Assembly: GCA_013115135.1 (NCBI GenBank)
Contig: JABANP010000116.1
Coordinates: 62,001-126,000, forward strand
DNA: 64,000 nt
Direction of reading: 5' to 3'
Origin: Perkinsus olseni
Lineage: Eukaryota; Perkinsozoa; Perkinsida; Perkinsidae
The notes below the pieces were generated by a model. The model did no database searches. It was not told the DNA's origin and was given only the letters and a program-made list of their open reading frames with translations. The first letter of the stretch is position 1. Each line of letters starts with the position of its first letter. A program made the translations under genes and the position numbers. Below are positions 75-60,200 of this stretch, in pieces.

Positions 75-404
75 CGCATACAGTATGCGGCATACTGACG
101 TACGCGAGGGCAAGGACGGGGGAAAGACACAGAAGATTATGACGTCTCCTTGTCCAGGACAAGGACATACAGGACAAGTTGTCCTGTATGCGCAGCTGTC
201 CCGGCGCATTTCAACGCTGTCCATTGGGATTCTGAATGATATAGTTCTAATGAGGTATCTGTTGCCTCGCGGCGCGAGGCTCGCGCAACTTACGTCAAGT
301 TACTTGACTTAAAGTCACAATGTGTTGCTTCTCCATTGTTGCTCGTACTACGAGCTTGTGTTGCAACACTTGTGTTGACTACGAGGCTCGTAGTCAACAC
401 AAGT
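75..404. repeat. Cluster of one-base-spaced palindromes
   Basis: Seven inverted repeats lie in about 330 bases, each with two perfect arms around a single unpaired base: 75-89 (7-bp arms), 149-163 (7), 166-190 (12), 264-280 (8), 294-308 (7), 341-355 (7) and 368-404 (18-bp arms around G386). No gene is visible here. Arms this long cannot be chance, and a one-base loop is too tight for a normal hairpin, so an RNA-hairpin function is unlikely. Confidence 0.9.
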
Positions 405-1455
405 TTGGAGAGGTGCCAAAGCGTCTCGTTCCTCCTTAGCTAGCTCTCACGGGAGAATGAGCTATGCACGCATACACAATGCGATCAGTGCATGACGAAA
501 TTCTCATGATGCTGAGATTAAACCTCAGAGATCCGGAGCGCATTGTGCGACTCTGCTCTGTCCGAGAAGAAAATTCATTTCATACTGGTCGCCGTGAAGC
601 AAGAGTGGTAAAGCCGTGGGTAGATAGCCTTGCGGTACATCACTCGAGGCGCCTGACCTGACATGACTTGAAGCGCAGCTTTCTAAACGTCATTCCATAC
701 CAGCGAGGTCACCCACCCAACGGACTTTAGCAGCATCGGTCCCTCACCGTATGCATGCTACACCAATCTCAACTTACGAAGCTACGGTAGCCGTTGTACA
801 AGTTGAACGTATACGTATTCTAACTAGGTAAATTCAGTCCAGGGCGGTGTTTCGGTCGTCATTGACGATTAATCAAATCTTATCAAATCCTTTGTTTCAG
901 AGGCTAACAGTGTTCACGCTGAGCTATGATGCTCTCTAGGAGTGCTCGTTACTGAGGCAGTTGAGCAGAGTACAACACCTAGGCTGCCAACTCACGAAGA
1001 CATCTGTTCAACATTTGCCGTCGTGCAACATGCAATCACCGGCAGTGCCGGTCCGGCCCTCAGTCCAGATGGTAATATGGTATCATTGGCAATTATTCAT
1101 TGCCAGTGGCAATTTGCAACGTATACGCTCGTCAACCCCAGATCCTCGCTGGTCGTCCATCGAGCGAAGAGCGCCGCAAGGTAACCTTTTTGTAGCCCGA
1201 ACCTTCCGAAGGTTTGACAACACACGCTTGCTCGATAATAACGGGTCCAGGCGGGGGTGCAGTATTTGCTCGCATAAGAGTCTCGCAGCTTCTTGGATAA
1301 TAACTCCCACCCTTTCTGGAGCGGCATGGCTCAATAGCATCATCGTCAGAGGGCTTGATAGATGAGCCATCTGGACGCAGTTCATAACTTTGATCCAGTG
1401 ACTCTCGTTCCAATCATCCAAACTACCCCATTTAAATCCCATTTCGAGCAAAAAG

Positions 1456-1516
1456 CACCAAAAGAGTAGACCACTTTACCACTAGCCTAGTGGTAAAGTG
1501 GTCTACTCTTTTGGTG
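1456..1516. repeat. 30-bp perfect palindrome, 1-nt centre
   Basis: The left arm (1456-1485) and right arm (1487-1516) are exact reverse complements, separated only by C1486. This is the longest perfect inverted repeat I found in the window. Confidence 0.95.
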
Positions 1517-2875
1517 GGGCACTAGGAGTAGCCAACACAAGACCCGTGGTTTGGCCATAGAGCCTAAACCGACCAAAGCCAAGCATAATAAGCCAAACCC
1601 AGTATTAAGTTAACACAGACCCGGGTTGAGTCAGATTAACGTGATTAATGAGTTCTAAATTATACGATAAAACTCTACGATCATACTAGCGTCGCAGCTT
1701 AAGTAGTGCGAGCTGCGCGCCACAGACGACGGACTGACACAATCGGGGACAGACTAGATAGGCGATACGGCACAATAACCAGAAGTATATCATGAGGGTT
1801 CCCGAGCTTTCTGAGAGCCTTCTCATTGAGCTAGTCGCCATCAGACGTCGGGCTCGTTGTAACCAGTACCGAGTCCAGGAAGTTGAATCTGGATGATGCA
1901 CCACGTCACGAGTCAGTGGTAAATTCAGGGAAGGATTGGGCGAAACTTCTTTCTTTCCAAAATTTCAAGAAAAATTTCCATAAATTCCGGGAATTCAGGA
2001 ATTTTTCTTCAAACCCTTTGCGGGGCGTTAATACGTCCCGCTCGCCTGTGATTTTTGCCCCAGGAGGGCTCTCTCGGAGAGGCGTAGCCATAGTCGATCG
2101 TCTCTGAGCGCAATTCGTGGCCCTGTTAAGATGTCCTCTCAGAGGCATGCCGATCTCCCGGGCGCCGGGCCTGCAGCCATACAGCAGACCGCAGACCCGA
2201 TCGTCCTCCTAGGTCTATATTAGTAGTACAGACTCAGCCTGTACGCGTCGCCGTCACCGAAGGGAGAGGGGCGACCGTGTTTTCCGGTACGAAGTATACA
2301 CCGAAGGTTCGGTCTATGCTTTGTGGCAGGTTTCCTTGCCAGTGCAGGCTGCCGCACACGCACGTCAGTGCACTATGCATATTAGCGAAGTAGACTCTCC
2401 TCTCTCAACGAAGCGGTGAAGTGAACCTCTCCGATCAAACACTTGATTACACTGCCATTTTGTTTCCTGAACTGTGCCATTACCAAATGTGACAAAGCTC
2501 AGTAGTTCGCCGAGCGAGATTATCTCGCTCGCCGAGATAGCCACTAGGCTACAGTGTGTCAATAGAAGCGGAGTAAACAAGATTCTAGTGGAGAACCTCA
2601 ATACGTCAGCTGCTGACGGTCAGCGTAAAGGTTCTGCGACTCTTCCTGCCGTAGCGCACAGTGTATCTGAGTCTCTGAGTCAGAGAGTACCGTAGTATTG
2701 AAAAATATTGCACTGTCGACCTTGCTACCTCACTACAGTTCTTCAATGTATTGTAAAAAATGCCTAAATTTCGCTAAATTTCCACCATCGGTGAAATTTC
2801 CCGGAACTTCGGAAAACTTCCGTCGGGAATTTCCGTCAAAATTCCTAATCTACCACCCTTCCGTGACTCGGAGTC

Positions 2876-2920
2876 ACGAAGTTCACCGAGGTCTCATGAT
2901 GAAACCTCGGTGAACTTCGT
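2876..2920. repeat. 22-bp palindrome, 1-nt centre
   Basis: The arms pair over 22 positions around G2898 with one mismatch (C2893/A2903). The outer 17 pairs are perfect. It directly follows, and slightly overlaps, a 7-bp palindrome at 2863-2877. Confidence 0.9.
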
Positions 2921-3587
2921 TTCCCAAAGTGACAGCAGCGTCGGCACTGACGAATCGTCAGCGGAAGGGTCACAATTCCGTCAACCAGGTGGAATAATCC
3001 ATCAATTCCACCCCGGGCGCGCGCCGATGTAGCGCACAATCCATTGTGCTCAGGCCAATTTCCTTAACGAGTGTGGGATGGATCCAGCGAGATCACGCCG
3101 CTACGCTGCGCCCCATGCGATATTGCTCACAATTTCGGGATATATTCACCTTTAAACTGCTTCCTCGGGATAATCCCTGGAGTTCCGCCTGTGTGATAAG
3201 TACTAAAGTACTGCTACTCTCATCTCATTCCTCTTGGGACGCAAGGGGATGCGTACGAGAATGTTTTCTTCGCTAAGAAGTTAGACGGTGCTACCACATA
3301 GTGTGCGAGTCTGGGTCCTTTCGAATGATGTTCGGTTGGCTCAATCTTGAGCCGACTCATTAGGTTTACAGTTCATTCGCCTCGAAATTCGAGCTCCTTC
3401 ATCACTGCTAAAAGAACAATCACGATGATGATGGTGATGCCATCACCGTGATGGATTATCAACCGTCTTCACGAATAAGCTGCTGGAAACAGCAATGACA
3501 AGTTGTCATTGACAACTAGCTTCTTACGGTGCCTTGAGCAGTTCATCTTGGTATGGTTGCACCTTAGGTTGCCCCAAGCCTTCCTCA

Positions 3588-4365
3588 ATGACCATTCGCT
3601 TCCTTTTCGCCTCGCTCTCGATCACTTTGCATCCTCAGGAAGTCATCGGCGGCAGCATTCTCTTCAGAAGGACACTCCAATACGACCCCGTTTTGTGTGA
3701 CAACGATCTGGGCCCTGGTGGCAAGCGGTTTGACCAGAAGCTTTGTCTGATAAAGAGCGTCGAGAACAGTAGAGAGGTGAGAAGCTCGGTAATGCCGATC
3801 AGTCGGAGCTGGTGTTTGTCAGATGTTGTTTACAAAGGGCCTCACCCAGCGTCATGTCAGTGGCGAAGTCGTGCAGATCGAGACAACCAAGCCCGGACAC
3901 GGAGGAAAAAACTCCAAAGATTTCACTTTGATACCTCAGAATGTTACCACCTATCGAAACTTCAAGTTCAAGGAGGGCTACATGTATGGTGACGCGAGAT
4001 TAAAGTTCATGACTCTGACAGGAGGTCGACAGAGCCCACATCGTCTCACGCTCACCCCACTCAACCCTATTCACCCTAAAGACGCCCGCGTGGTAGAAGG
4101 CCGCAGTTTCATCTCCTTGAACGGAGGTGTTAGACTGATAAAAGAATTTGACGGAACAGGAGATCTCAATTGGCGAATCTGCTATGAGGAAAAGGACAAC
4201 GAGTACTGCAGACCGTCTGTGGTCGAAAAGAACGAGTTCATTATCAAGAGCGCGGGCGAAAATTTCAAAGGAACGTTTTATGACCTCGACCCAGGCCATG
4301 ACGAGCATATCATTATGTTGGCCAATTATCTCGATACGACAGTCCTGTTGGTGAGAGAGCAGTAA
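3588..4365 (+). CDS. Two-exon secreted-type protein, unknown family
   Basis: I join exon 1 (3588-3776, 63 codons) to exon 2 (3823-4365) across a 46-nt intron that starts GTGAGA and ends TTGTCAG; both junctions are phase 0, giving about 243 residues. The product starts MTIRFLFASLSITLHP, a plausible signal peptide. The rest is a Cys-poor, beta-rich-looking domain with the motif WRICYEEKDNEYCRP and a FYDLDPGHDEH stretch near the C-terminus. No known domain is recognised. A decayed copy of its 3' half lies at 14347-14476, so the family was duplicated locally. The alternative is a single-exon protein from the ATG at 3823, which would lack the signal. I prefer the spliced model because frame, splice sites and signal all fit. 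Confidence 0.65.
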
Positions 4366-5791
4366 CGGAAGATGGGACAGAGACCATGCATGTTGTTGAA
4401 GTTGTGGTAATGTTGTTATGCGAAGGTCACTATTGTTGAGTCGAAGAGTCTTGTGGAAATGAAAGTCTATGCCCAGAATCATCTCTGACCGACCTATTGT
4501 CCCTCTCGCTTTGTACGTCGACAAGCCTGACTTGTCAGGCGGCCTGACGCAGGCCACACATGATGTGTGACACATCTCTCTCCCAGTTCTCCTCGAGCCA
4601 ACTACTACTGTCGCTGGGGCGAGTCGGCGAAGATGCACAGATCATCATCCACTTGAACTACTAGACTCAGTCTAACAAGTTTCAGAGGCTCTCTCTGGCT
4701 GCAAAGCTTGAGAACCGGCGATTCGTAGACTACGTCGTACTTAAAGTCACACTAAAGCTCCGTCCACGATCTCGCCAGCTCCCGAACGAGACAGTGGGAA
4801 GCGACGCAAGCAAGTAAGCTCCACAGACAGAGGGGTGGAACCATCCCAGGGGATGAAGAGCCACGATGGCTGAACCCACCTCCCTGCACCAGGGAACCAG
4901 GGAGGGACGGGCTGGGCTCGAAAACCGCCACGCCGAGCATCCCGAGGTGCTCGACAGATCCACAGGGGCGACTAGCCATATGAACAGATAGGCATCACCC
5001 CCGTAGGCTTTGGCACGCAAGCCCAACGCGAGGCGAGATCGCGCAGGCTTTACAACGGTGAAACAAAGTTTCTCGGACCCTTAAAGCTTCGTAGTCACAC
5101 CGGAACTTGTCAAGTTCTGGTTGAATCGACACATTAATGTTATTGTGACAATAATATCGTCGTGTTAGCGTTTCTCTATTAGTTGCGAGAACACGCTTCC
5201 CACTGTTCCCTAGATCTTTACACCATGCTGCAGTGGCTCCTGGCACTCCTCGCAAGCCCGTTTTTTGACCACAAAATTGGAGACAGCTTCGCGTGCCGCA
5301 GCCACACCGCGTCACGCGATACCCACTTCGGAGTATTCTGTATTGCTCGTTGGCGTTGTTTCGTTCATATTCTCACATGACCACATGACGCTGCCGTAGC
5401 GCTGTGAAATTTTGAGAGGCGAACTGTCTGTCTTCATCGACATGACAATCGGCGGTGTGATTATCGCCTCTTGACTTGAGTTGCATCTATGGAAAATCGC
5501 ACCATTATCGCATCGATAATTGTAGATCCGTCTCAAACGTCTCTTGGCCTCTTTCTCGCAGTCAAAGTTTGTGTTGTCGCGTCGGCTGTCGCTCGCCACG
5601 CAATGTATTGTGATATTGTCTGCTGCTAGGCTTGAGTGATCTACCATTCACCTGTGGATGACTCATCGAGATTGGATAATCGATTGAGATTCACCTCTCC
5701 TATATCTGAGTATTGTGTTCCCTGGATAGGAGTTTGATTATAAAACGGTAGGTGTAATCTCATTTGCTCCTCCTCCCCAGTGTATCGTGCA
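4366..5791. other. Intergenic, no gene seen
   Basis: Only overlapping short frames occur on both strands, and none looks conserved. Small one-base-spaced palindromes lie near 5106-5120 and 5135-5149. The end of the stretch (5763-5780) is a pyrimidine tract closed by CAG, which looks like a splice or trans-splice acceptor for the next gene. Confidence 0.45.
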
Positions 5792-6832: not shown

Positions 6833-7679
6833 GGCATCGTGAATGTCCAACACATCCTAGCGGGGAATCTACGAGCTAGTATCATTACGGTGAAAACTTT
6901 CCTGCCTGGCGGAGTTATGGGGCGGTAGTCGTCTCGATGGCCACATGATCATTTTCTCGAGTCTCGAAAAACGTTGCGTTGTGCGTGATAACCTGGGGAA
7001 GTCTAGGTGCTCGACTGCCGGCCCATTTATGCATGTGCCTCTCTCGAGACTGGTCCGTAATGGTCTGGTCCGAAGGTACAGACCTATGTAGATTACCTCC
7101 ACTCTGAGTAGACTACTTATGTGAAGTCGTCGGCTCGTAATGGTCATGCTGTCGTTATCAGAACGAAAGATCATCCCATTGGGATGATCCCAATCCGATG
7201 CTGTCATCTTTGTTATATTATATAACATAGAGAACAGCATACCCCAAAGCCTTCGGTGTTGCTGAAGAGAACGGCAATCTTTCGTGCCACATCAACACTT
7301 ATATATCATGAGGTCCATAATCTATGAGTAAGTTTCATCTTTCATCCTCGCGAATGAGATAGAGAAGATAGTAAGGTGGATAAGTTGAGAGAATAGTGGT
7401 CGGTGATGCGAAGCTAGTATGAGCACAGCTTCATTGTGTTATGCAGACAGTGCACATGAGATAGGACCTATCTGATAGGCGCCTCCTTCTCGGTATTCCC
7501 GTCGGCTCTCGGACAGCGGAGAGTAACAGCCTCTCTGGCTGTCGAGGGAATTTACCCGCAAATTCCGATCCTCGGCATGTGTGTGTCAATTTCTCTCTCC
7601 TCAAAACCAGAAGTTTTCAGTCGAGTTCCGCTCGTTGCGAAACCGAGTTGTTTCTCTCCCCAATGGGGAGGGGGATATC
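6833..7679. other. Spacer between tandem paralogues
   Basis: No gene seen. It contains one-base-spaced palindromes at 7169-7189 (10-bp arms) and 7211-7227 (8-bp arms). A short piece of the dispersed repeat, also seen near 9540 and 14480, occurs at about 7405-7455. Confidence 0.5.
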
Positions 7680-10911: not shown

Positions 10912-10927
10912 TTGCCAGGTGAAGGAA

Positions 10928-18078: not shown

Positions 18079-18143
18079 CATGTCATTGCTCCACGGATAT
18101 CCGGGATATCCGTGGATCAATGACATGAGGATATCATATCCTC
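18079..18143. repeat. Two adjoining one-base-spaced palindromes
   Basis: 18079-18127 has 24-bp arms around G18103 with one mismatch (C18089/T18117). 18127-18143 has perfect 8-bp arms around C18135. The second begins on the last base of the first. Confidence 0.9.
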
Positions 18144-18622
18144 AACCGAGTAGCGAACAACGATTCTGATTCTCAAAAAGGGGATCTGCATGTGAGCCGT
18201 TGATCACGATCCGGATCCGTGAATCACCCACTCGATCGTGATGCACGGGGCTTGGGACCAAACTTCTAAAAATATTGGGTAATATCAAGATCTGATCCAT
18301 CTGAGTCAGATGACCTGACTCATTTTTTTATCTGATCAAGTCTCGATCTTGATCGGCCCTGGACTTCGGTCACGTTTCCTGCGTTCGGTCTAGTGAAAAG
18401 TTTCATCCCACCTATGCACCCGAGCGATCCGTGATCGTGCCATATATTCAGACGTCGGAGCATGTAGTGGTTAATTGCAACTGCTGCCGCCCTCCGGTTT
18501 TCAACCCAAACTCAGTTGCTAGAGCACTTCGTCTCTCCCTGGAGATCAGACATGCGCCCTCCGAGTGTTGCATTGACAGAAACTATCCGGGCCCAGCTTG
18601 AGCCTCAACAATATTGTAACAC

Positions 18623-23454: not shown

Positions 23455-24095
23455 TAGAACCCGTAACGGGTTACCCGTTTCTTAAACTCAGGATACCAAG
23501 AAAAAGTGTCGGCAACGGCACATTCTGGTACGAGAGCGGGATCAACAACATCTAACTCATCATCCACAGCATCCCAGCCTTCCGAGTCTGAGAGAACCAT
23601 AGTGTCTCCTCGAAAGGCAATCACAGGGTCAATCATGACCTCATTAGAAACCTCGTCCCAGTCACCGTTCGGTTCTTCAATATCACCAGGCCTCGTTAAA
23701 CGATCGGCTAAGTTAGCTGACGATCGAACGTGTTGGAACAGCAGCTCACAAGTCGGTGCAGCTCTTCGGATGTTACCAACCATATCACAAATATGCTGTA
23801 ACCTACGATACTCCGGCTGTGGTAGAGCTTCAACTTTTGCTGAATGTCGATCAGTTAAAACCCACCGTAGGCGATGTAGAGTAATGGTACTGTCGCTCAG
23901 TACCGTAGCCCTTACCACACCAGTAGTTTTCATGGTAACCAACCGTTCCAACGCCACCACAGCTAGTCGTAAGGCTTCCAATTCTCTCAACGGGATAGAA
24001 CCATGCCGAGAAGTTATCACCTTAGCTTCCACTCTGGTTCGAACCTTATCTCTCATATCCCATGCCATCGCCATTTCACTGGCATCGGCATACAT
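23295..24095 (-). CDS. pol: Pol, part 3: RNase H
   Basis: Same frame as part 2, directly after the TAG. It begins MYADASEMAMAWDM, the typical first-Asp block of LTR-element RNase H; LRLAVVALERLV and TVLSDSTITLHRLRW supply the following acidic blocks. The end of the frame is out of register with the integrase, which starts near 23440 in another frame. Confidence 0.75.
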   Translation of the reverse strand: MYADASEMAMAWDMRDKVRTRVEAKVITSRHGSIPLRELEALRLAVVALERLVTMKTTGVVRATVLSDSTITLHRLRWVLTDRHSAKVEALPQPEYRRLQHICDMVGNIRRAAPTCELLFQHVRSSANLADRLTRPGDIEEPNGDWDEVSNEVMIDPVIAFRGDTMVLSDSEGWDAVDDELDVVDPALVPECAVADTFSWYPEFKKRVTRYGFYWLNQGIHSVCMRLLSYDRILSVPLLGHFPWILPWDCCFRGSSAMMARMTMYR

Positions 24096-27281: not shown

Positions 27282-27294
27282 CTTCTCGGATGAT

Positions 27295-29629: not shown

Positions 29630-29970
29630 AGTCACTGGCGACTACAGTGTACGCTATGTTACAGCTACAGCCTGGTTCAGTACCACTCAGCTCTTAGTTC
29701 GCTGCTACTACGTATCATTAGTATCAGATAACCGTTTGATCTCACTATGCGCCTTACACTCGCGTGCATGGGTATACGTGCTACACTAAGCTTAGCGTAG
29801 TAAGCTGTAGACTACTGCCTGTAGTGCACATTATCACTAAGCTCCCAGCCAGTCCTTTTGTACCACTCTTTGAGCCCCGTCTCAAATAGCCACACTGTAC
29901 TGACTCAGTACAGTAACTCAGTACCACTGAGTTATAGTGCACAGCGTCACCGTGACGTCCGTTGACGCAT
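29630..29970. repeat. Dispersed repeat pairing with 42440-42816
   Basis: Shares long stretches with 42440-42816 (words such as CATTAGTATCAGAT, GTATACGTGCTACA and AAATAGCCACACTG). Each copy has private insertions, and most of these make inverted repeats. Here they are CTGTACTGA/TCAGTACAG (about 29894-29912) and the neighbouring AACTCAGT/ACTGAGTT. Bases 29189-29629 and 29971-30358 contain no recognised gene. Confidence 0.75.
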
Positions 29971-30430: not shown

Positions 30431-30846
30431 CGTGAGGCAACAAGACTTTCTCCGTCACGCCCGTGCTGTCCCCATACTAGGAATCCATTGGGGTTCTCCA
30501 TCATGCCCTCTCTCGATTTTCACACATAACCAACTCATCATCACCCCTCCTTCAATCCGGTTCCGATCACAACAGGAGAGCCCGTCTGGGGCGACCGTTC
30601 TGCGAGTCGAACGAAATTCTCCATTGGCCCAACGAACTATGCTGTCTAAGACAGCCTGTCTTCCACACTGCTGTGGGTTCCTGTTGCTACTGCCGCCATC
30701 AGGCTGCCTGAGTTCTCACACCGCGGTGGTGGCATCTAGCTCAGAACGGAGCTAGCCGATTCATCCGGAGCCCTCGGTGACCTTTCTTTAATTCAATGAT
30801 TTTCAAATTGAACAGATGGTCTGTTCAATCTGTTGGTTAGATCAAT

Positions 30847-30871
30847 GCTCCATTGAACAGTTCAATGGAGC
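30847..30871. repeat. 12-bp palindrome, 1-nt centre
   Basis: Perfect arms 30847-30858 and 30860-30871 around A30859. A smaller one (CTGTAAC/GTTACAG) follows at about 30880-30894. Between 30431 and 31039 no gene is seen; a G run lies near 30985-30996. Confidence 0.9.
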
Positions 30872-33151: not shown

Positions 33152-35295
33152 GGCTCTGGCAAGAATACGGACTTGACAACGAGAACTAGAACTTGTAGTT
33201 CTCGTTGGGAAGTCGTCATCCTTACCTAGAATTTACCCACAAGACGGGCTTGATGACGCGCGATGTCTCTTGGCTCAAGATCGAGTCTCCCCAGTGATTG
33301 TTACGGAATCCTGCGCACATCCATGTGCTTGCGTGCAAGACCGGATCCATAGCTGATCGATGATTCGCTGTGGTTGGTCGCCCTGCACGCGCTGCTCTTA
33401 CTCTCCCCTACACTTACTCCCCGTAGCGAGTAGCGTGGTCTCCGTCTCCTATCTGACTGAGCGACCTTTCCTTCAATTGCATGATAGTTTTCATCAGACC
33501 GTTGAAGAGCGTGCATCTCTCTAACTCTGTGGCCACCCCATGCAAACCGAATGTTGCCGGCAACACTCCACCGTGTATTGATTCGAATTGCCACATTATC
33601 GGTCATTGTGGTGCCCCTCTCAAAGAGATGTTACAATTGCCCTATAACTTAGGATCTGCTCCTTAAAGAAGGATCGTAAGTTTCTTGAGGATCTCAGTTT
33701 TAATCTCGAGCGACAGAGTCAAGATGCGGTACAGTGCATACACGTCAATTAGCCGTCCTTGATCCGTGATCGCTGGTCGTGAGAGTGTTCTTTTTTCCCG
33801 AGGGGGCTGGAACGACAGAGTCTGGCAGACTCAGTCTGCCGGGGCACGGCAGGCTGCCGTCGGTAGCCAGGCAGATTCCTTTGGAAAATGATCTGGACGG
33901 CGCGGTTCCGGTGTGGAGGAGTCGTGACTTGACCACATCCGCGGGAAAATGCGTTTCGGTCCACTGCTTGTGTTCAAAGAGTAGGCACCATTGCGTGCTG
34001 TCACGATGACGCAGCTCCGTCGGAGCATCCGTCGAGCGGAGTCCGAGGGTGGTGAGAATCTTGTCCATGATGTTTGACTCGCGCCAAGTGAGTGTGGTTC
34101 AAGAGCTGCCTCTCAGATGTGGCTTGGAGGGCACTTTCTCTTGCGAGGTGTGCCATTACTGAGCCGAGTCGGAGAGAGAGCCTCGATCCTCACTGAGCTT
34201 CTCTTTTGAGTCGAACGATTGACTATGATAGTCAGACTATCTGGTGGCAATGTCGAAGCCCGTACTCATATAGCTCAACGAGAACGAGGGCTGGAACATG
34301 CAATAATAACTCATAGTTGCAGACATCAGAGCGAGAAGCTAAGTGGAATGAGAAAGAAAGGTTGGATCGCCGCGACCCGATCGCAACAGGCGCATGCGTG
34401 GCACGACGTCGTCGTGACGACGACCTGGTAAGGGCCGTTCGGTCACTTCTGGGCCGAGGCTTTGGAGGACGACGTGTACTCCGTGCCAGTGACTTTGTCT
34501 CCATTGCGGGCCTTCTTGTTGGAAGCATCGCGCCGACCTTCCCTCTTGCGGCGCCCTTTCTGCCCTTGACGCTGGGCAGCCGAGCCTTGGCTGCTGCATG
34601 GGTACTGCTCCGCGAGGTGGCCAATATACACTACCAAGCAGCAGGAGTTCTTCAGATGTGCACGAAGTATTGGAATTATGCAATATCCATACCACTTGTT
34701 TGGTTCTGCGCGCCACACATTCGGATGGCCCGCGTGGACTAAGTTGCTGCGCAGCCCCTGCTATTCCAATTACTTTCCATGCGTTGTCCTGCTCCGTGCG
34801 GCTTTTGAGTTATTCGATGCCTTTCGTGAATGAGGCGTGCACGAACTGTGAACTGAAATGAGAGTGTACGACCTATCAGTGTACCAAGTATTTGGTGCAT
34901 GATATTCAAGTGTACTAGCTAAGGGTGTACCGGTACCTCCCTGGTACATTCTTGAGTGTGCTTGACTGACGTGCTCGAGTTTTCAGTGTACGAGATATCA
35001 GTGGAATGCACCTCAGTGTACGAACTTATAGTGTTCGAGAAAGTAACTTTCAAAGAGGAGCACGAGATTCCTGTGAGCGAGATTCATGTGTACGAGTCGT
35101 TATACACCCTTATCTTCAGGAATGACGCGAAGCTCACCTCCAACGGAAAATCATGAGATTTGTGGAATGTTCTATGTTTTCAAGTGCGGAAAAATTGACC
35201 GTTTCAAGAAAGTAATTGTGGCGAGCGAAACTGAGCTTGATTTTCATATATTTTGTTTCTCTAATAAAGAATCTCTATGAGCAATAACCATATAC
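33152..35295. other. Intergenic
   Basis: Contains an inverted repeat 33177-33188 / 33196-33207 (12-bp arms, 7-nt loop), a palindrome GGCAGACT/AGTCTGCC near 33827-33843, and another, GACTAT/ATAGTC, near 34220-34232. About 34865-35105 shows an irregular repetition of the words GTGTACGA and CAGTGTAC every 20-40 bases. No supported gene. Confidence 0.45.
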
Positions 35296-38157: not shown

Positions 38158-38238
38158 AATGTGCTCTTTCGATTACTCCGCTATGCTTCTTACTAAGAAG
38201 AAGTTACTTAAGCGCTAAGAAGTTCTTAGCGCTTAAGT
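38158..38238. repeat. Insertion carrying a 16-bp palindrome
   Basis: The palindrome is 38206-38221 / 38223-38238 around G38222, perfect. Compared with the paralogous flank at about 32606-32620, which reads CTCCGC then TTAAGTG, this copy has 75 extra bases (38158-38232). The insertion ends inside the right arm, so the palindrome arose with, or was lost by, the indel. Confidence 0.85.
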
Positions 38239-39928: not shown

Positions 39929-42913
39929 GCGGAGGATATCCAAGGTTGATGGTGGCTTTCGATGGCGGAGAAAGATATGCAACTGTCGTTCAGTCATTGC
40001 TAAGTCACCGTGTCGTGTCGCCTATCACCGAGAGTTAATCTGTATCTTGCTTGGGTCGAGTTAGGATCGATTCCAAAAGATAGCATCCTGGTGTATATTC
40101 AAATTTTGCACGCACGCACAAGTCGTGAAGCGTTGCTTCGACGTATTTGATACGTTTTTATATTTCCATATATCTTGATATTAACTGTTTGGGAACCTCG
40201 ACGACGGTGTTTTGTGAGATAAAAAATATCAAGCCATACAATCGCTTCTGTGGATAGGGCGATTGGGCGATCATGTGTGCTCAGTAACACGGAGTAATGC
40301 TAGATTGTAGTCTACGGTCTCTATTATAGACCTAAGACTACTATCTTCAAAGCCTTTCGTTGAAGAATCCCCAATGTAAGTAAGTGGGCTGGAGTCCATC
40401 CTCTGGACTCACCCCGAAGAACGGGGCCCGGTCCGGGTGTATCGTAACTCATAGACTCTATGAGTTGGGATACACCCGGACACCTCTATGATATAGAGTG
40501 AAAATTCGGGCAGTGATCAAGTCAGACAAAAGGTTAATGCGTTGACGTGTCTGGGGCAGTTTAAGTTCAGGCAGTTGCGATTGGCGCAGAAACTGTCTAC
40601 AAAGTCGGACCAATACGGACAGTGGAAACTGGTGCACTCGACTCCTCCCTCGCGCTCGCCATACCCATCGTGCAGTGTCATCTCGGGCACTACTGAGCCT
40701 CCCATTCCATCAACTCTAAAATTTCATCGGAATTTCACATGTATCATGTATCCACATTGTGGATTCCACAAAGTCAAAAAGAGCAGACAAAATTTGATTT
40801 CGCCATCGTTAATCGATTTCACCAGGGAAACTTGCACGAGGCAGATCGGATGCCGACGAGTCGTCGGCGACGACCATTGCAGCAGTTTTCAGGTCACATG
40901 CAATTTGCTTCGGCATCTCAAGCTCGAACAATGACCGCATAGCAGGGTAACCAAAGAGTTGTCGCCGATCATGCGGAGTCTCTAGCTCGAGGAAACGACT
41001 CAAAGTAGTAGTGCTACTGGTGTAGCCGCTGTCGAGCGCTAGGGAGAGCTTCAGGAGCGGAGATGAAACCTCTAACTACGGGGACTGGGAGTCGGGGCGG
41101 TGGCCCCGACGGACCTGCAGGCGGTGAGGGCGACAAGGAGCTACGCCGAAAGCCCTTCCTGTGGCCTTGCGCCAACAGTTCCTGCGTTTGGCTGCGCACA
41201 GCGGGTACACAACCCCTACGCGTGTAGCGGCCAGCCCAGCGAGGACCTACACCCGGATATTGGGGCAGGTCCAGGCTCACCCGTAGTCTCGGTTAGTAGG
41301 TAGGGTGGGATTGATCGGCTCACGCAAAGGCTGCAGAGCCGCTCAGATCGGGATACTAGAAGGAAAGAGAGGGGACTAGGGGCTAGTCACGTCGTCCTCT
41401 ATGGCGAGGCGCAGACCAGCCACCGGGAGTCCTGCGGCTATGACCGCATTATCTTCAAGACAAATTGATCGACTCGCGCAGAGGCTGCAGGGTCGATCAA
41501 ATCGTTACCGAGAAAACATGAAGACAAACTGACAGACGAAAGGTGGCTCGGGTTCACGCGTTTAGCAGAACCGCCCCCCATTTCGTCGAGGAAGATATAC
41601 CGCGGTAGTACCGCGACAGTACTAGAATATTACACCCTGACCACGATTAGTATTACGAGAAGGTGAATCCGTCCTGGCTAGCGCTCTAGCCAATGCTGCT
41701 CGCACACAAATATTGTCCCCTTTCGCGCCGGTTTCACCGTCGATAAAACCCTGCGGGATTTACCTCAGTAGGAAAGTGCGACGATCGAGAGCATGACGAG
41801 GTACTTACTATGGCTACTGAGAGAAGGCATTCAAGGCTTCCAGCTGCTTGCGAATCGATCATCGCAGCCGGCGGGAGTATTCTCAAGTTGAAAGACACAG
41901 CGACACCTTATATTGATCCATGCCTCTTCCATTTCACGAACTTGAGCATGACAGCGAGGCAACTGCTCGGTTCCTACTGGGTGCGATAATCGATGCCGCT
42001 GTGCAACACAGCCTGTGTTGAAGCCTCCGGGACGCCACGTGTACGTCACTGCCGTCTTGTAAAGGCGTATACGGTCGAATCTGGTGCTCCATATTATCCA
42101 AACCATCTCGTCCTGGTGGGACCTGTTGCGAGGAGCATCGTGTTTCCAAGCATCGCGCTTCACTGTCTTGCCTCACACATGTCCTTATACAGTATAAGTT
42201 ATACTGTGGCAGCATTACTGTCTACCCGCCCAATCACGGTGTGCATGCGTGCATCCTTCTGGCTATGAAAACACTGCATAGTGACGCGCTTAGTATCGAC
42301 GAGTCAGTCCTTAGCAAACGTGGCTCGACGTCTGTCGCCTCAAACAGGTACGCCGCGTACCTGTTTGCCGGGTCCTATACGTAGTGCCGTACGCGCCTTC
42401 TTCCCTTGAGGTCTACGCGCACTACAGTGACAGCGTAATCCATGACAACTCTAGTGTACGCTATGTAAGTTACATAATGTAACAGCTACAGCCCTGTTCA
42501 CTGAACATCACAGCAACGTTCACTGGCACTGAAAAGTGTTCAGTACTACTCAGCTGCAAGACTATCATCGCTGCACTTACCTTTACTGCAACTGCGTGTC
42601 ATTAGTATCAGATGACCGACTGACCTCATTCTGTGCCATACACTCGCGTGCATGAGTATACGTGCTACAGTGAGCTCGGCTAAGTAAGCTGTAGATCACA
42701 TTATTGCTTAGCTCCCCTTGAGTCCAATTTAACCTTTCTTTGAGCCCCGCCTTAAATAGCCACACTGAGTTATAGTGCATACGCTGTCGCCGACAGCGTA
42801 TGCACGATAACTCAGTACCGACAGCCTGTCGGGACAGCCGCGATGCGGAGCTGTTATTACGCCGCAATTGCCGTTCAGTCGCCTATCCCTTGCAAGTTTT
42901 TCATTTTCACCCT
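39929..42913. other. Intergenic, rich in palindromes
   Basis: No gene supported. Palindromes with one-base centres: 40431-40481 (25-bp arms, two mismatches, centre C40456), about 41601-41615 (7), 42341-42367 (13-bp perfect arms, centre C42354), 42462-42476 (7), 42764-42816 (26-bp arms, one mismatch, centre C42790) and 42818-42832 (7). Bases 42440-42816 are the second copy of the repeat at 29630-29970. Confidence 0.7.
42764..42816. repeat. 26-bp palindrome, 1-nt centre
   Basis: Arms pair around C42790 with one mismatch (A42774/G42806). The left arm is ancestral repeat sequence (its start also occurs at about 29927-29941); the right arm is a reversed copy of it that is absent from the other repeat copy. 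Confidence 0.9.
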
Positions 42914-48902: not shown

Positions 48903-49630
48903 TACGATAACACCGCGAAAGCGACAACCACCATAATGATTCTTCCATTCAAGTGACCATCTTACGACTATTCGCGATTCCCCCTACCATTATCAACCTT
49001 CCCTTCAACTCCCTCTCGTCGACAACAAGATACTCCGTCTCGGGCGAGCGCTTTTAACGTCACCTGCTGGGCGTAAGCCAGGGCTGAAAGTAACAGCACT
49101 TGACATAATTTCGTGGCGCGCGGGAAACCACTCAATACTTTGGAATCGAGTGCGGCTTAAAGATGTCGCATGTTGTATATAACGCCTAACGCATGTCGTA
49201 TATATTCCAGCTCGACGAGAATCTTTCTTCCCATGATTGACGCTGATCAACCTTGGATTCGTACTCTATTCCTCACGACTACTACCGTTATCAGCTCCCT
49301 TCTTTCCTTCTGTCACTCCCATTTTTATCCCACTTCGGCATCTTCGCAAAGTACCGGAATTTTTCACGAAAACGCTCATCAACTCGGCGACCTTCTCATC
49401 AGGAGGGGTGGGCGGAAGTTTGTCGAGTTGACTCATCGGAGGGAAGGTGGAAAGAATCAAAACATATCTTTCATGAACCCTCGCATCATATATATAATAG
49501 TATCTTCCATAAAACCGTTACATAGGAGTCACTAAGTCGAAACTCGGAGTAACTCATTTCCTCACGGTTAGCAATGTCCTATCGAAGATCTCTTATTATC
49601 ACAGGTGGTGTCGCTGTTGGGTAGTACCCA

Positions 49631-50229
49631 ATGGGTACCGCTGTCCAGTGCTTGCAGTTGGTGATCAAGGGCCGCGGCAACAATTCCTCGGAGATCAGTT
49701 TTGACAGGCGCCATTTGCGAATGGAGCTTGAACTCTGTCAGCAGCAGATGTGAGCTTCAACTTTATGGCCGCTAGTGTTTCCGAGACTTCTGTTTGTGCA
49801 GACGGGCCAAAGCGTTGCTGAGCCCGCTGGTGCTCGGCGAGCGGTGGATCAATCATCGTTCCAAGGAAGCTCTCTGCCAGAAAGAGGACACTGAGAACAC
49901 CGAGGGAAGAGAGGTGAAGTGGAGGAAGTTGAGAAAGATATCGGACCTTGAGCAGAATGACAGATGCTCAGGAGACACAGGTTCATGACTTCTGCTTAAT
50001 CAATCAAGAATCTAAGGCCGCTAGCTACTCCGCTACCGGCAGCGTGTTCTCCAAGAAGTTGGTTACTCGAGCCGCGCGGAGTCATTGGGAAACTCATTGT
50101 CGGCATTATATTTGCTCCGAGGAAACGCTTGCGAAGGCCCAAAAAGTCAATCGATGGTTGGCGAAGAACTCCCATACTAGGAACATATTCGATGAGCGAG
50201 CTTTGCTGGCTATTAAGCAGACCCGATGA
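49631..50229 (+). CDS. Small three-exon gene, unknown
   Basis: Exons 49631-49749, 49802-49913 and 49972-50229 join in perfect phase (2, 0) through introns of 52 nt (GTGAGC...TGTGCAG) and 58 nt (GTGAAG...GCTCAG), giving 162 residues. It starts MGTAVQCLQLVIKGRG and ends DERALLAIKQTR. It is basic, rich in helix-forming residues, with a Cys/His/Trp cluster (HWETHCRHYICSEE). There is no signal peptide or known motif. These two introns carry none of the sequence modules seen in the neighbouring minus-strand genes. The opposite strand is also open over exon 3, but has no comparable splice structure. Confidence 0.65.
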
Positions 50230-51690
50230 TCCCAACTTGATCATCACATTGACCAGCTTTGCATCGTACTAGCGTCAACCTGAGATGCTCGGGCCCCGAG
50301 CCTCGGGGTCTGCTGTGGTGGCATAGCGGCCTCACTATAACTTTTGCTTCAAGACCTGCGAAGAGAACGCAGCCTAAAATACTATTTCGAAATCGATTTT
50401 TCGGAAAATATACGCAAATTTTCCCGATTTTCTTATTTTGCACTCTCGAATTCGTAGTAGACTCTCATCCCTTTCATCATCATACTCCACAACACAAGTC
50501 CCCAGCGGATCCACAACTTTTCCGTCAAATGCCAGCATGCCGGAAAGATACCATCATCACTCAACTTCCTCGGCTGCAGACGACGACTTCGAACTCCTGT
50601 AAAGATATGCCAATCGTACGGATAGGTTATCGGCTTCAACATTAGATACCCGTTTGTAAACTTCATAGTCATATGATGCGCACCGCATTTATGTAACTGC
50701 TGATCGATTTGAATTTTATCACTATTTACACGTATGAAAGTTTGATCAATTCGGATGTAACCACGATAAGCAAGTATGAAACGGCTGATCGATTTGGATA
50801 CTATCACTCTTCCCCACTACGAAACGGCTGAGCGATTTGGATACTATCACTTAGAAAAATCACGAAACGGTTGATCGATTTAGATATTATTACTGCCCTC
50901 CAGACTCTCCTCCTTCCTCTGACCCGTCCTCCTCTTCTTCACTCTCCTCTTCGCTCGAATAATCACTAAAAAATGCAACCGCTCAGAATCGAACCCGGGA
51001 CCAACAGATACAAAAAACTGTCTGATTCATAGATATACATTAATACGGATAGCATGGATTTATATCCAAATCAACAAAACTACTCCCGGCGGAGAAAAAA
51101 TCGCCAAAATTTTCCACTTTTCCGTAAAAAAATCGCTAAAAATACACTTCGGCCCTATCTTTTTAATCCGATAAAACCAAAACTGCGAACGCGGAAAATT
51201 TCACGAATCCGATTCCGATTTCTGCTACCACTGGAGCTAACCATCAACGCAAATCGTGAATTGAACTCCCCTAAGGTTTACGATATTATGTATGCCATAC
51301 AATGCATTGCATTGTATGGTCCTTTATTATGATATTGCATGACTATCTGTATACTGATTGTATTTATACTAATATTATCTTTTTTCATGGATATCTGTTA
51401 ACAATGCGCAGTAATATATATTAAAAGCAAAAAATTTCCAACAAAAAATTGGTTTTTCGGCTTCTAAAATAAAAGCCCAAAGCAGAAAATAGACCTAGAA
51501 TAATCATTGTTGTTGCACCGCGGACTTCATGTGTTCCGCGGCGACACAACATATGCGATCCTTCCGAGTATCTTTACATCCAGCTGTACTTCCCTGCTGT
51601 CGGAGTTACTCCTCATGCTTAAGTTTTTCAACATTTTTGCTTCTCTCAAAAAAAATAATCGTACCACACAAACCCGAACTCCCCCCAGAT
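50230..51690. other. Intergenic or intronic, A/T-rich
   Basis: No clear exon. Contains a three-fold imperfect repeat of TACGAAACGGCTGATCGATTTGGAT-like units (about 50720-50895), a tRNA-3'-half-like stretch on the minus strand (about 50985-51015), and a perfect 12-bp palindrome around T51307 (51295-51319). Confidence 0.5.
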
Positions 51691-51696
51691 ATCACC

Positions 51697-54229: not shown

Positions 54230-57200
54230 GGAGTTAGCAGATCCACTCGGCCATCGTAGCCGCCGACCGCCACGAAGTTGGAAATTCTGTGAAGTGACAG
54301 GAGGGCCGAGTCCGAGGAAGGATGGTCAAATTCACCTGGGGAGAAAGATACGCTTCCATTCGAGCTTGATACAGAGTATAAAGATACGCTTCCATTCGAG
54401 CTTGATACAGAGTATAAAGATACGCTTCCATTCGAGCTTGATACAGAGTAAAAAGATACGCTTCCATTCGAGCTTGATACAGAGTAAAAAGATACGCTTC
54501 CATTCTAGCTTGATACAGAGTATAAAGATACGCTTCCATTCGAGCTTGATACAGAGTAAAAAGATACGCTAAAATGGCGGATGAAGGAATCGAACCCGAG
54601 ACCTCCCTTACGCAGTCGGATGCTCTGCCGCGGGGCCTCCAAAGTATCTTTCTTTTCGCCCATGGACTCCATACTTAAACTCTCACTGCTCGACCTCAAT
54701 GACCGACGCATATCCCAGAATCTGACGACGACCACCAACGAGGTCGACCTTTCCGTAATATGCAAGCTTGAAAGAAAGATACCGCTATCCTATACCTTTC
54801 TCAAGCAGAAAAAGATACCAAAATTTCCAAATCGCCAAAAATTTCCCGCTTTTTCCGGGAATTTCCGTAAATTTCATAGTTTTTCGAACCAAAAATATTC
54901 CACCGCCACTTCTTACCAATTCCGCTCATGAATCTATTACAAACTTTGTCAAACTCCCTCTCCCAAGGTCCCCGGTTCGATCCCCAGGCCCTCCATTTTA
55001 TTATCACCTCACAAACCCGTCCAGCGAGCTCGTCGTAACTTCCCATTTTTCCGCCGCCATACCGGTCATCGCGGTCGGCCCGCCGACTCCCCCTCCCGCA
55101 ACCACATTCGCGTCAACGTCGATCGCTTTGATACTGCCGTCCGAAAACCCCGCGAAGACTGAAAAAAAGAAACAAAAATCGCTTCGCTCCGCTAGCGACC
55201 ACCGAAAATCCCGCGAAGACTGAAAAAAAGAAACAAAAATCGCTTCGCTCCGCTAGCGACCACCGCACCGCTACCAAACTTCCTTTATTGAAAAAAAATA
55301 GGAAATATAAAATGAACAAAGCAAAAAAATACAAATAAATTGCTTCGCTCCGCCAAAACCTCTAAAAATACACAACTTACCACACTTCGCTCCGCTAGCC
55401 GCTTCCAATGTCGTTATGGAAGCCCCGGATTCCACGCCCGCCGTCCGACTAATGAACTTCCCGCTGTGGACGTCCACGCATGCCACACTACCATCGGTGT
55501 AGCCGATGACGAGCTTGCTGCTCATATCGAAGGGATGCCTGAAATCGATCACGTGATCGATTCACACTACACGGTACAGTTAGATAATTCTCATTTTCCG
55601 ACGGGTTTCAATTTCGTGGCGCGCGAAATTCCCCGCGGCGATGTATTACCAACAAAGTGCGCTCGGATCTATGGTCTTTCCCTCTTCAACCAACTTCAAC
55701 CGCTGCGCCAAAAGCTGCAGGAATGGGGTATCTTCCGCCGTATCTGATGCATGCTCAACCTCAAGATACTCCATAAGAATCTGCAAGATTCTTACCTGAA
55801 TTCGGCCCGGCCACCTTCCACACACACGCCGTACCATCGCTGCTGCCGGTCGCCAGAAGACTGAAAAGAGAGGAAAAAAACTTCGCTCCGCTAAAGAACC
55901 CTCCACCCTAGCAAACATCCCACGGCAGACTTTTGAAATCCAATCAAATTGTCGGAACATTTCGGGAGATTTACCGAAAATCTACAGAAAATTTGTGGAA
56001 AATTGACCAAAAATCTACGAAATATTTTCTCTTACCAGTCCTCAGGCCTCCCTAGCCGGACAGACCAGACCGCGTCTTCATGTCGACACACTTCCTCCGA
56101 CCTCACAACTGCCGCAATTTCGCGGCGCGGTGACAAAGGAGGCAGCTCGGCATCCCGCGGTGGCAGTCGGTACATTGAAACCTGCGGGCGGAGCGAAGCT
56201 GCGCATGACGATACAACTTATACAAAAAAGAAAATCTTACGAGACACGAAATCGAACTCCTCAGAATTGGCCCTGTTTGAGTACTTCTACCGGACCATTA
56301 TTCAAAATTTGTGTTCCCGACTACGAGTTCAAAAATTTCACAGTGGACTACTACTAGGCCTTCGCAACGAAAAAAGCGGAGCTCGGGACAAGTCTCGGGT
56401 TCGAAACCCAGCCCGGGTTTTTTTCCGTGTTTTTTCGGGTTCATCTACAACGGTCCACGACGGTTTTGCTCGGTGGAGCCGGGATGAGAGCGATTTCGTA
56501 TTTTTTGTAGAATACACAAACCGCGTGCTTTCGAATGGTATGTGTCTCGCGAGTTGAATCGACATAGTCGTGGAGAGATAATTTGAACGAACGAACGAAC
56601 GAACGAACGCACAAAAAAGCGCAGAAGTGACAGTATATGCTCCGCTCGCTTCGCTCGCTCCGCAATTCTCCTTAATAACCTTCAGATATCGCTGAGTTGC
56701 CAGCGGTTTTATAAGCTAAGCTTTACGTCATCCTCGAAGATGAGTTACAAAATTAATAAATATGCTATGAATAGCCTCGACGATGGGAGCATAGGCTCAT
56801 CGCTGTAATTCTCTAATGCGACATCAGATAAGAAAGAGGACAACAGAATTTACGAGAGAAGAAATAACCCCGGCGGGACTTGAACCCGCAACCTTCGGCT
56901 CCGGAAACCGACGCGCTTCCATTGCGCCACGAGGTCGATGGAAATATCCCCATCCCAATGATGTACCAAACAAGACCTCAACGACACCAATAGAAGAACA
57001 GAGAGGGTCCGAACGAACTGAGCGGTAGTATAATCTCCGCAGAACATGCCTCATAAAAAAATTCCAAATTAAGGATCTTTTTCGCCGAAATTTCCGGAAA
57101 AAATACGGAAATTTCCGGAAAAAAATACGGAAATTTCCGGCTCACCTACCACTCCATCCGCCCGACCCGCGACGAGGGTCCGATCGTCCTCACGGAAGGC

Positions 57201-60200
57201 CATCGATAAAACAGCGGAAGTACCTCCCCTCAGACAAAGCGGGCCTTCAAGGGATCCGCCTGGGGAGAGAAAATCTTGCAATCTTGCCGAATCTTGCATT
57301 TCCTCAAAGCACCTGGCGTTGAGGGCGATTCGTCACCGCTGGATATCGGTGGTAGGTTCCAAACTTTGATGAGCGTATCTTCCGAGCCTGACAGAGTTAT
57401 AAAACTCCAACTGTCTGAAGGTATTATACGGTCCTATTCTGTATCTTACATGCTTCAACCTTGGATACTCTACAGTCAAAGTGTTGATCACAAGAGCACT
57501 TGCCGATCCCACGCGCCATCCGAACACGAGACACCAAGATCCACTCGGACGTTTTAACTCGCGTGAAAACGCCCGTGTCTCACTACCAGTAAACAAAGTC
57601 TTCCCTTCATCCGCCATCACCGTGCATCTAATCGCTCCCAAGTGGGCATTCATCCGAACAGCCGGGCGCCACTCCTTCCCTGCCCTGGTCACCAAACCCG
57701 CACAGGTTCTATCCCGGGGAGAGGCCTTTTTAGTCGATTGTTGGTGAGCCGCGGTGGGTGACAGTAATGGTGGGCTTGAGGGACCCTAAAAGATCAAACG
57801 GCGTATCTTTTCATGCGTCACGAGCACGCGTCGACCTAAGATACGCATGCATATATACCTAAAGATACTCATGAGTTACACGCTCATGATAGAGTCAACC
57901 ACAAGATACTCATCTCAACCTCAAGATACTCATCTCAACCTCAAAATACTTGACCGAAGTTGACCTCAAGATACTTAACCGAAGTTGACCTCAAGATACT
58001 CAACCAAGGCCGACCTCAAGATACTCAACCAATGCCGACCTCAAGATACTTAACCAAGGCCGACCTCAAGATATTCCTACTAATACAACTATAATTCATA
58101 CCATACAAACTCGACAAAGATTTGTAAAATTTTTTTCATACCGAATCTTGCTATCCGACCTCCACGAGAACTGCCAGCTCAACCTCAAGATACGCCGCGA
58201 ATATTTTTAAAAATATACACCTCACACCACTAAGAACCAGCTTCAACCTAAGATATTCTTTGCGCTGCGAGCCCCCATAACACTACCCCCTGCAGACTCT
58301 CCTTAGTCGGAAACCTCGCCGCTTCCATCCAGGACGACGGAGACGGGGGAGCCTTGGCCGGATGCGCAGTCGGACTGAGTGGACCTCACGTTTTCCATCC
58401 GAACGACCCAGGTTCAATCCCTGAATGGTTTTCCTATATTTTTTCTCACCTCTTTAAAGTGTTGCCCGCCTTAGGTGAGCGTCCTCGATTCGGAACCCGC
58501 GACAAATTCCCCGCACGAGTTCGATTCCCATCGACGTCACCTCCGCTTGGACTCAAAGAAGATTCCCGCAGGTAACTGAACACCAAATCGATCACTCAAT
58601 CGATTTCAACATATCATTTCTACTCTATCAAATACCGCTCAACCTTCCAGGGAATTGAGAATATATTTCGCGCGCCACAAAAATATTCTAAATTTTCCTA
58701 GAAAAATTTCCCGCGCGCCACGAAATTACCTTCAAGACCATATATCTATATTAAAGGTATTAAACACACTTTATATTATCTACTAATATACATACATCAC
58801 CTCTTCACGCGCCACGAAATTCTTCACGCGCCACGAAAATCTTCACGCGCCACGAAGTTATTTATTACTCTCTCAAAATCGCCTTGCAAGACTGAGGCCT
58901 CGACTGTCCAGCCGGCGAAGGATTTTGACTCGAAGATACGCTGCCATACAGCTCCAGCTGAGCTCGCAGGGTTTCGGCCGGGGAGAGAGGAAAAGATACG
59001 CTTTGCGGCGCTTCGCTCCGCTCAGATAATGGTGGAGTACTCGATGCTATGTGACTTCCTTCAGTACCTGAACCAACCTAAAAGATACTCCGCACGGGTC
59101 AACCTAAGATACGCATCGTAGCGAGGAAGAGCACCTACAATATTCACCCAAAAGAATCATAAAAGATATCTTTACGCACTATAAAGAATAGAGGTCGACC
59201 CATGACTCACGCGAAAATTAAGATACGCATCGTCTCAGTGATAAAAAAAATACTACAATAAATAAAATCTAAATACTACACCAACTTCGCGACCTCCATT
59301 TCTCCCCAATATCGTGAAACCGTTTCCAGCCTCAGAAATTTCAAAGCGAACGAAGCCAGCGGAACATTTTCTGTAATTTTTCCGTTTTTTCCTGCGTTTT
59401 CCCTTTTTTTTGTTTTTTTCCACCACGGCAATGTTGACCGAACCCAAGTTTAGCATACCATTTGAGAGCGTGCGAAAGGAATTTTTCAAAAAGTATGAAA
59501 TCGCTACTATTCCAAAATTACCGAGCCCCGTTAACTCCTCACAAAAATTTTGTGAATATTCATGAATTTACTCACAACTTTACTTCAAAGTTTGAATACT
59601 CAAAGTTAATTTCACGAGAAAAAAATTCAACTAGGTGTCAGAAAAATCTGAATTAACCTTCAACAGTGCGCACCGGACGATGTAAAATCGGGTCTTACCG
59701 GGTCGCCTAATTTTTTACGTAGGTATTATCATAACGTAGGGAAAAATCAAATTTGATTCAACAACTTTCGTAAAATTTGACCTCTACCATGACACCAATA
59801 ATTCCTTTTTTCCATACCACTCCTCACCCAACTACCGCTTCTTTGGAGGGCCTCTACAGTTGCCCTCTCCCGCTTCAACGCGAATTCAAGCATGCTGATT
59901 CGCCTGAGGTAATCCCGGGCCTTCCCTTCCTGCGCTTCCGCCTCTAACTCAGCTTTCCGGCATTTCTCCACCAACTCGAACCTGTGGGAAATGGAAAATT
60001 TCGAGCGGTGAGAATCTTAGGTCGAAGCGGGGTATATACGGATGAAGTTCATTGATTCTGATACGGGATACCAGTCCGAATCTTATAAGAAACAAATTCC
60101 TCCGTAATAAAAACCGAGCGGTGCATACTATGAGTCTCATAGTATGCACCGCTCGGTTTTTTAGTATGAGAATCTTAGGTTGAAGCGGGGGAAACACAGA

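Follow-up and report, generated by a model that had tools for sequence, protein, structure and literature searches.

One-base-centred palindromes in the Perkinsus olseni genome as probable excision footprints of hAT-type DNA transposons

A 64,000-nucleotide stretch of Perkinsus olseni DNA (contig JABANP010000116.1, C20:62001-126000 in our numbering; hereafter the window) carries many palindromes whose arms are separated by exactly one unpaired base. These palindromes are very probably excision footprints of hAT-type DNA transposons. They are built on a fixed 8-bp unit, and relatives of several of them carry the corresponding site with a single copy of that unit and no insertion. The window was set against the assembly from which it comes (61.48 Mb in 968 contigs) by means of 20 stretches of 10 kb on other contigs (200 kb), whose positions were hand-picked and not random. 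Window and outside stretches together form a 264-kb set.

A first-pass annotation of the window had listed twelve long inverted repeats with a one-base spacer. All twelve were found where it had placed them; eight are perfect, three carry one mismatch (those starting at 2876, 18079 and 42764) and one carries two (40431). Its statement that spacers of 0 and 2 are rare beside spacers of 1 was also borne out. Counting perfect palindromes with arms of at least 8, nested pairs being taken once, the window holds 4, 40, 1, 7, 2, 3, 3, 3, 1, 3 and 3 at spacers 0 to 10, against a mean of 0.2 to 1.4 per spacer in five order-2 Markov simulations. With arms of at least 12 there are ten palindromes at spacer 1 and none at spacers 0 and 2, and the simulations gave none at any spacer from 0 to 10. 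The peak, for which a plot of arm against spacer beyond the window had been proposed, is present in the 200 kb from 20 other contigs, where palindromes with arms of at least 8 number 11, 59, 4, 6, 3 and 9 at spacers 0 to 5.

The same annotation remarked, fairly, that a loop of one base suits a self-folding hairpin badly; the exact one-base offset would nevertheless arise because the hairpin proposed here would be made covalently by a transposase. A specific mutational process, as it suggested, is seen wherever else the genome was sampled, but neither of the two causes that it named is supported. Sites of a dimeric protein would be expected to share sequence, and since the arms compared differ from each other, at lengths up to 32 bp, that reading is not supported; the other cause, a switch of strands at a replication fork, is weighed below. 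Two features had escaped it, namely a sharp excess of palindromes whose arms are exactly 7 long, and pairs of adjacent palindromes whose centres lie 7 bp from each other.

These two features define the basic unit. At spacer 1, 178 palindromes have arms of exactly 7 (13 simulated) and 54 have arms of 8 (3 simulated), and no such spike at arm 7 was found at spacers 0 and 2-12. Many of the 7+1+7 palindromes share bases with another that is centred 7 bp further along. With the target T written as 12345678 and primes marking complements, this twin unit spans 22 bases and reads 1234567-8'7'6'5'4'3'2'1'-2345678. It is an 8-bp target duplication flanking an inverted copy of itself, and the unpaired centre of the palindromes is 8' or 1' of T. 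When up to two mismatches were allowed, 156 twins were found in 264 kb (65 in the window), against 5 across five order-3 simulations; they fall into decay classes of 65, 53 and 38 with 0, 1 and 2 mismatches, and after merging of overlaps they amount to 153 footprints.

The length of the unit is sharply fixed. Exact twins at T lengths 4 to 8 number 100, 9, 2, 1 and 65 in the 264 kb, and 0 at lengths 9-15, the counts at lengths 4 and 5 being those of short patterns given without a chance figure. Among exact 6-mer repeats, 92 of the 260 with an insert of length 8 have insert ends that complement the outer bases, while the same signature is seen in 1 to 11% at other insert lengths from 2 to 30. 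A left and a right hairpin strand together account wholly for 62 inserts of length 8 and for 8 longer ones (0 and 0 in one simulation); these inserts consist of flank sequence only, not of element ends. At insert lengths 2-6, 7 such inserts were seen against 14 simulated, so short footprints are not in evidence.

Excision of a hAT element predicts hairpins on the flanks that are offset by one nucleotide, opened off the tip and joined via the 8-nt duplication. In the course that we infer, insertion of the element would duplicate an 8-bp target T, and the transposase, in later cutting at the two ends of the element, would offset each cut by one nucleotide and close each flank as a hairpin. The strand of the left flank hairpin would then read 1234567, 8'7'6'5'4'3'2'1' and onward into the inverted flank, and the single unpaired centre (8' or 1') would correspond to the one-nucleotide offset of the cut. 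Host nucleases would open the hairpins well off the tip, leaving long self-complementary overhangs of palindromic (P) nucleotides. Most commonly, the overhangs would join via their shared 8-nt copy of T, and the result would be a 14-bp insertion in which two 7+1+7 palindromes overlap; joining elsewhere would instead give one long palindrome beside the second copy of T. The prevalence of the 8-nt twin points to opening of both hairpins, in most cases, 8 nt or more away from the tip, and to annealing of the overhangs via T.

Long palindromes were examined for the second target copy. The count of completely explained inserts, which finds few long cases, was complemented by a looser partner test, in which the second 7-mer of T was sought just outside the palindrome and the reversed 7-mer served as control. 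Among 45 spacer-1 palindromes with arms of at least 9, 17 lie in twins and 19 have the exact missing 7-mer just outside (control 0 of 45). Seven of the remaining ones have a partner with one mismatch, which is not informative since the control gives 9, and 2 of the 45 have neither. In the longest palindromes (arms of 32 in the outside stretch L008, and of 30 and 26 in the window) the partner lies three bases past the palindrome. The shorter class, 232 palindromes with arms 7-8, includes 161 in twins, 14 with an exact partner (control 6) and 9 with a one-mismatch partner (control 38).

An exact partner was found for seven of the twelve listed palindromes (166, 1456, 30847, 38206, 42341, 42764 and 60109). 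Two of these lie near the start of the window and are described with its relatives; the other five overlap long footprints. At 30822..30866, T1-7 of the right-hairpin target TGTTCAAT is exact at 30822 with the centre at 30859 (palindrome 30847-30871), and at 38186..38229, T1-7 of CTTCTTAG is exact at 38186 with the centre at 38222 (38206-38238). At 42347..42395 (GGTACGCG) and 42783..42832 (GCTGTCGG), T2-8 is exact at 42389 and 42826, the overlapped palindromes being 42341-42367 and 42764-42816. The insert of the footprint at 60128..60171 (CTATGAGA; palindrome 60109-60161) is fully explained by a left P stretch of 27 nt and a right one of 3 nt. Three listed palindromes (368, 18079 and 40431) have a one-mismatch partner. 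The region 18079..18144 comprises two footprint-like palindromes, 18090-18116 with a one-mismatch partner and 18126-18144 with an exact one, and the imperfect palindrome at 40431..40481 is probably a decayed footprint, its one-mismatch partner being of a kind frequent in the control too. No partner was found for two: the imperfect palindrome at 2876..2920, and the perfect one at 51295..51319, which also belongs to no twin and is one of the 2 of 45 with neither.

The window was also aligned with paralogous segments. Diverged relatives of window positions 1-8833 lie on contigs C12, C192 and C370, and neither C12 nor C192 has the insertions at 60-96, 149-185, 265-286, 341-393 and 1479-1526. The first of these is a pair of overlapping exact twins, at 60..81 (T=ACGCATAC, T1-7 + rc(T) + T2-8) and 75..96 (T=CGCATACT), which together form a 28-bp insertion relative to C12, aligned as one gap. 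The long footprint at 149..185 (T=CTTGTCCT), with 10 nt of left and 13 nt of right P sequence, overlaps the palindrome 166-190; it is a 29-bp insertion relative to C12 and C192 with 0 mismatches to the hairpin model. An exact twin at 265..286 (T=CCTCGCGC) is a 14-bp insertion relative to both. At 341..393 (T=GCTCGTAG), a composite long footprint overlapping the palindrome 368-404 forms a 45-bp insertion relative to C12; its target copies are exact, its insert has 9 mismatches to a simple hairpin model, and it was assigned by inspection. The long footprint at 1479..1526 (T=CCACTAGG), with about 30 nt of left P sequence, overlaps the 61-bp palindrome 1456-1516 and is a 40-bp insertion relative to C12 and C192 with 1 mismatch to the model.

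Other footprints are shared among some of the segments. The twin at 3433..3454 (T=GGTGATGG) is common to C370 and not in C12 and C192, and the exact twin at 4555..4576 (T=CACACATC) is common to C12 and C192 and not in C370, where the aligner put a 12-base gap. C12 and C192 in turn hold footprints that the window lacks. By our own count, the four segments hold 14 distinct footprint events where they align: an automatic rule (at most two mismatches) gave 10, and inspection gave 4 (60, 75, 341 and 4555). Left outside this count were two rule-passing inserts that resemble tandem-repeat changes, at L064 937 (10 bp, also in L065) and L066 2267 (12 bp). Inserts at L064 587 (29 bp, also in L065), L066 2243 (9 bp), L064 5818 and 5823, and window 4680, 8677 and 8730 are unexplained, as is a poorly aligned stretch with several gaps at about window 5960-6080. 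Of the 21 indels that separate the window from C12, 7 are of 14 bp, more than of any other length.

Several further differences were noted in these segments. C12, C192 and C370 have in common several hundred bases that are missing at window 3200-3201; within them, C370 has an extra one-base-centred palindrome. At window 4778, C12 and C192 carry a one-base-centred palindrome with arms of about 22 (by eye), which the window does not have. The palindrome at 2876..2920 is present in all four segments. Compared with C12, L065 (C192:20231-26660) shows 53 one- or two-base indels and small local scrambles that resemble consensus errors.

Beyond window position 9000, predicted empty sites were sought for 27 footprints, the best 40 of 203 candidates being scored, and for four of the footprints a match of the same span, to within one base, was obtained. 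The twin at 23458..23479 (T=AACCCGTT) lies in a Gypsy-like copy; for window 23259-23679 one relative was found in the genome, on C533 (94%), the sole indel is the 14-bp insert, and the paralogue C533:28091-28497 has a single AACCCGTT (98% for the empty site). The exact twin with overlapping palindromes at 50287..50308 (T=GCTCGGGG) is matched by C192:52867-52984 (99%). For two twins with one mismatch, at 35257..35278 (T=TTCTCTAT) and, in a repeat copy, at 29804..29825 (T=GCTGTAGT), the empty site is fitted by C66:21034-21150 (86%) and by 21 listed places outside C20 (82-89%), respectively. Relatives are 13-14 bases longer than the empty site for 11896 and 49617, consistent with a shared insertion; the latter is an exact twin (49617..49638, T=TTGGGTAC), and C192:52221-52352 is 14 bases longer, as for a shared footprint. 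Relatives of 14140, 45069 and 45748 are 11-21 bases longer.

A possible source of the cuts is present in the genome. The hAT dimerisation domain PF05699 was found at 21 places above cut-off. The longest frame with this domain is open for 668 amino acids (aa) without stops, and the 581 aa scanned gave DUF4371 and the hAT C-terminal domain. Its translation includes a CxxH motif (CFAH), the motif required for hairpin formation by Kat1 (PMC4763223); no relative of the frame was found in PDB. One genome match each was obtained for Ku (weak) and for a Pso2/Artemis domain, both with putative roles. A family of 263-bp hAT-like miniature elements has ends TAGAGGTGGGC/GCCCAGCTCTA (L009:6465-6743 and L044-L063), with 41 matches from the best 40 of 106 candidates scored. 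Duplications of 8 bp (at most one mismatch) flank 19 of 20 copies, a few of which lie in duplicated flanks and are not independent. The end motif of this family occurs once near 20 hAT-domain loci (L034), without the other end. One copy, L046 (C144:68026-68351), centres a larger palindrome, its joined flanks having complementary arms of 18 bases. Across 118 footprint sites (at most one mismatch), the target leans weakly to GTnnnnAC, with G first (0.39), T second (0.34) and the complementary bases at 8 and 7. This goes in the direction of the preferences published for hobo, GTNCGNAC (PMC3276498), and for Hermes, nTnnnnAn (PMC10368747).

Several results weigh against hAT excision as the origin of the palindromes. 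The 264 kb yielded no more than one clear hAT-like element that has an 8-bp duplication, and a looser scan for elements with such duplications gave 4 against 4 simulated, no excess. For the 27 predicted empty sites, no locus occupied by an element was recognised among the best 40 of 203 candidates. The 263-bp family was tried as the source of the scars without success, the joined flanks of 19 copies giving no excised relative. The bias of T is weak, and the P-element preference GTCCGGAC fits it as well; the 17 tabulated element duplications do not have G1, but A and T are favoured as their second base. Neither twin nor partner was found for 48 of the 232 palindromes with arms 7-8, and since about 16 are expected by chance, some 30 of them are unexplained. 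Finally, 14 bp is not the commonest indel relative to C192 (5 of 67, 37 of the 67 being single bases) or to C370 (0 of 9, the shared site 4555 being aligned as 12).

Other origins were considered against the same data. Switching of template to the opposite strand at replication forks would yield inverted copies beside the original, one turn giving long palindromes and two turns giving twins in an X-X'-X pattern. There is, however, no evident reason for such switching to produce an exact one-base centre or a fixed 8-bp unit (exact twins number 2, 1, 65 and 0 at lengths 6, 7, 8 and 9-15). A single switch also makes no second target copy outside the palindrome, and that copy is exact in 19 of 45 cases against 0 in the control, so fork switching is a very unlikely cause. 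An artefact of assembly or library is more improbable still. The test, made on assembled sequence, was indirect: the scars show graded decay (65, 53 and 38 with 0, 1 and 2 mismatches), are shared or absent among diverged paralogues and are depleted in open reading frames (ORFs) of at least 200 aa. RAG hairpins are blunt, so palindromes with spacer 0 would be expected, unlike those found here; scars of RAG/Transib type were rejected, there being 4 (window) and 11 (200 kb) palindromes at spacer 0 against 40 and 59 at spacer 1. The target duplication of Transib is 5 bp (PMC3276498), and exact twins number 9 at length 5 (chance level not computed) against 65 at length 8.

Excision of a P element leaves sequence of the element ends and is not known to make flank hairpins. 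Scars from another superfamily with 8-bp duplications and flank hairpins (Merlin, P or an undescribed one) would share the unit length: Merlin-related genes have been reported in Perkinsus marinus, in an account that identifies neither their ends nor their duplications (PMC8101967), and P elements make 8-bp duplications with the preference GTCCGGAC (PMC3276498). Flank hairpins, however, are documented for hAT (PMC5873905, PMC4763223), and the explained inserts here hold nothing but flank; we regard such a superfamily as unlikely, if slightly less so than fork switching. The least improbable of the alternatives, though still one that we doubt, is a domesticated hAT-like transposase that cuts at remnant elements but does not mobilise them again, in the manner of Kat1 at the mating locus of yeast. 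Far more scars than recognised elements were counted in the 264 kb (153 and 1), and the genome has a stop-free hAT transposase frame. The targets, however, show a weak preference only, and each scar needs an earlier insertion with target duplication, so mobile elements would still be required. Excision of hAT-type transposons remains the preferred reading.

Footprints are not confined to the window. The 20 outside stretches hold 89, in 17 of the 20, and scaling to the genome gives about 27,000 (bootstrap 16,000 to 41,000, from hand-picked stretches). They are depleted in long ORFs: those of at least 200 aa cover 17% of the sequence and hold 7 of the 153 footprints, and those of at least 150 aa cover 30% and hold 18. 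Twelve footprint pairs start at most 45 bp apart (window 60-96 and 11 others, in the window, L006 and L020); in one pair, 15 bp apart, the targets overlap.

The proposed mechanism is of a known kind; the density of footprints and the dominance of one 14-bp form look new. In the openly licensed literature, the best-matching titles and abstracts included none on genome-wide hAT footprints in Perkinsus or on a dominant 14-bp form, which is not proof of novelty. It is conceivable, though we would put it at somewhat below an even chance, that hAT excision followed by annealing of 8-nt overhangs is a leading source of non-coding indels in this genome. It would have left tens of thousands of near-uniform 14-bp scars beside very few surviving elements, a readable, decaying record of imprecise excisions; it would also imply that hairpins are opened at a long distance from the tip, in contrast to the short-P repair known in Candida.

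Past cut-and-paste activity is usually guessed from surviving copies, whereas here the scar itself can be read from sequence. As the palindromes look like repair scars of hAT excision, they may serve as a fossil record of past excisions. Each scar would show its target, the distance at which the hairpin was opened and, via decay, its relative age. With such a marker, transposition history, the repair of hairpin ends and the phylogeny of paralogues or strains would become measurable in one genome. Palindromes of this kind should not be taken at once for regulatory sites, RNA hairpins or fork-switch scars.

Other features of the sequence were recorded alongside. Scanning of 10 ORFs identified an integrase and an aspartyl protease of eukaryotic type, which fits a eukaryotic source; a diatom origin was dropped, no silicon transporter having been found. 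Seven repeats in L006 and the window have no clear 8-bp end duplication (best 3 to 7 bp). A repeat in L006, at 5717-6128 and about 412 bp long, is listed in at least 10 copies, 92-99% identical, and has no 8-bp duplication; it is absent from the C3 relative and therefore looks like a recent insertion of another type. The spliced leader CCGTAGCCATCTTGGCTCAAG was found at 146 places (at most one mismatch, one base left open; 0 for the reversed-pattern control), and its sequences form a fairly regular array on G000 C268:207896-235713. The form printed for Perkinsus marinus has CATCTTGG, and that of dinoflagellates has CATTTTGG (PMC3101222, PMC9399869); by its leader the genome looks to be of Perkinsus type. 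Three tRNA-Arg(CCG) predictions lie in the window (30357-30431, 48831-48902 and 56865-56936), two with equal Rfam score and the third below the Rfam threshold.

In V(D)J joining, off-centre opening of hairpin ends gives palindromic P nucleotides, as proposed here. Among hAT systems, Hermes and hobo share with the footprints an 8-bp duplication, their targets being nTnnnnAn and GTNCGNAC respectively (PMC10368747, PMC3276498), and Hermes and Kat1 form hairpins on flanking DNA (PMC10368747, PMC4763223), as is proposed here. With mPing, as described in PMC4561436, the target duplication likewise provides microhomology for repair; its duplications, however, are of 3 bp and the site is mostly restored, whereas here hairpin-derived inverted copies would anneal and 14 bp are left. 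The closest likeness is to the Ac/Ds footprints described from yeast, Candida and Arabidopsis, which are made by hairpin formation, opening and then end joining, and whose P-nucleotide palindromes are centred on the complement of the base adjoining the transposon end (PMC5873905). The one-base centre found here would correspond to this hairpin offset. Arms in those footprints can be as long as 20 nt in S. cerevisiae and do not exceed 3 in Candida, and several forms are described at the test locus (PMC5873905). In P. olseni, by contrast, one form with 8-nt annealing and a 14-bp insertion dominates, arms reach 32, and the scars are spread over a natural genome.

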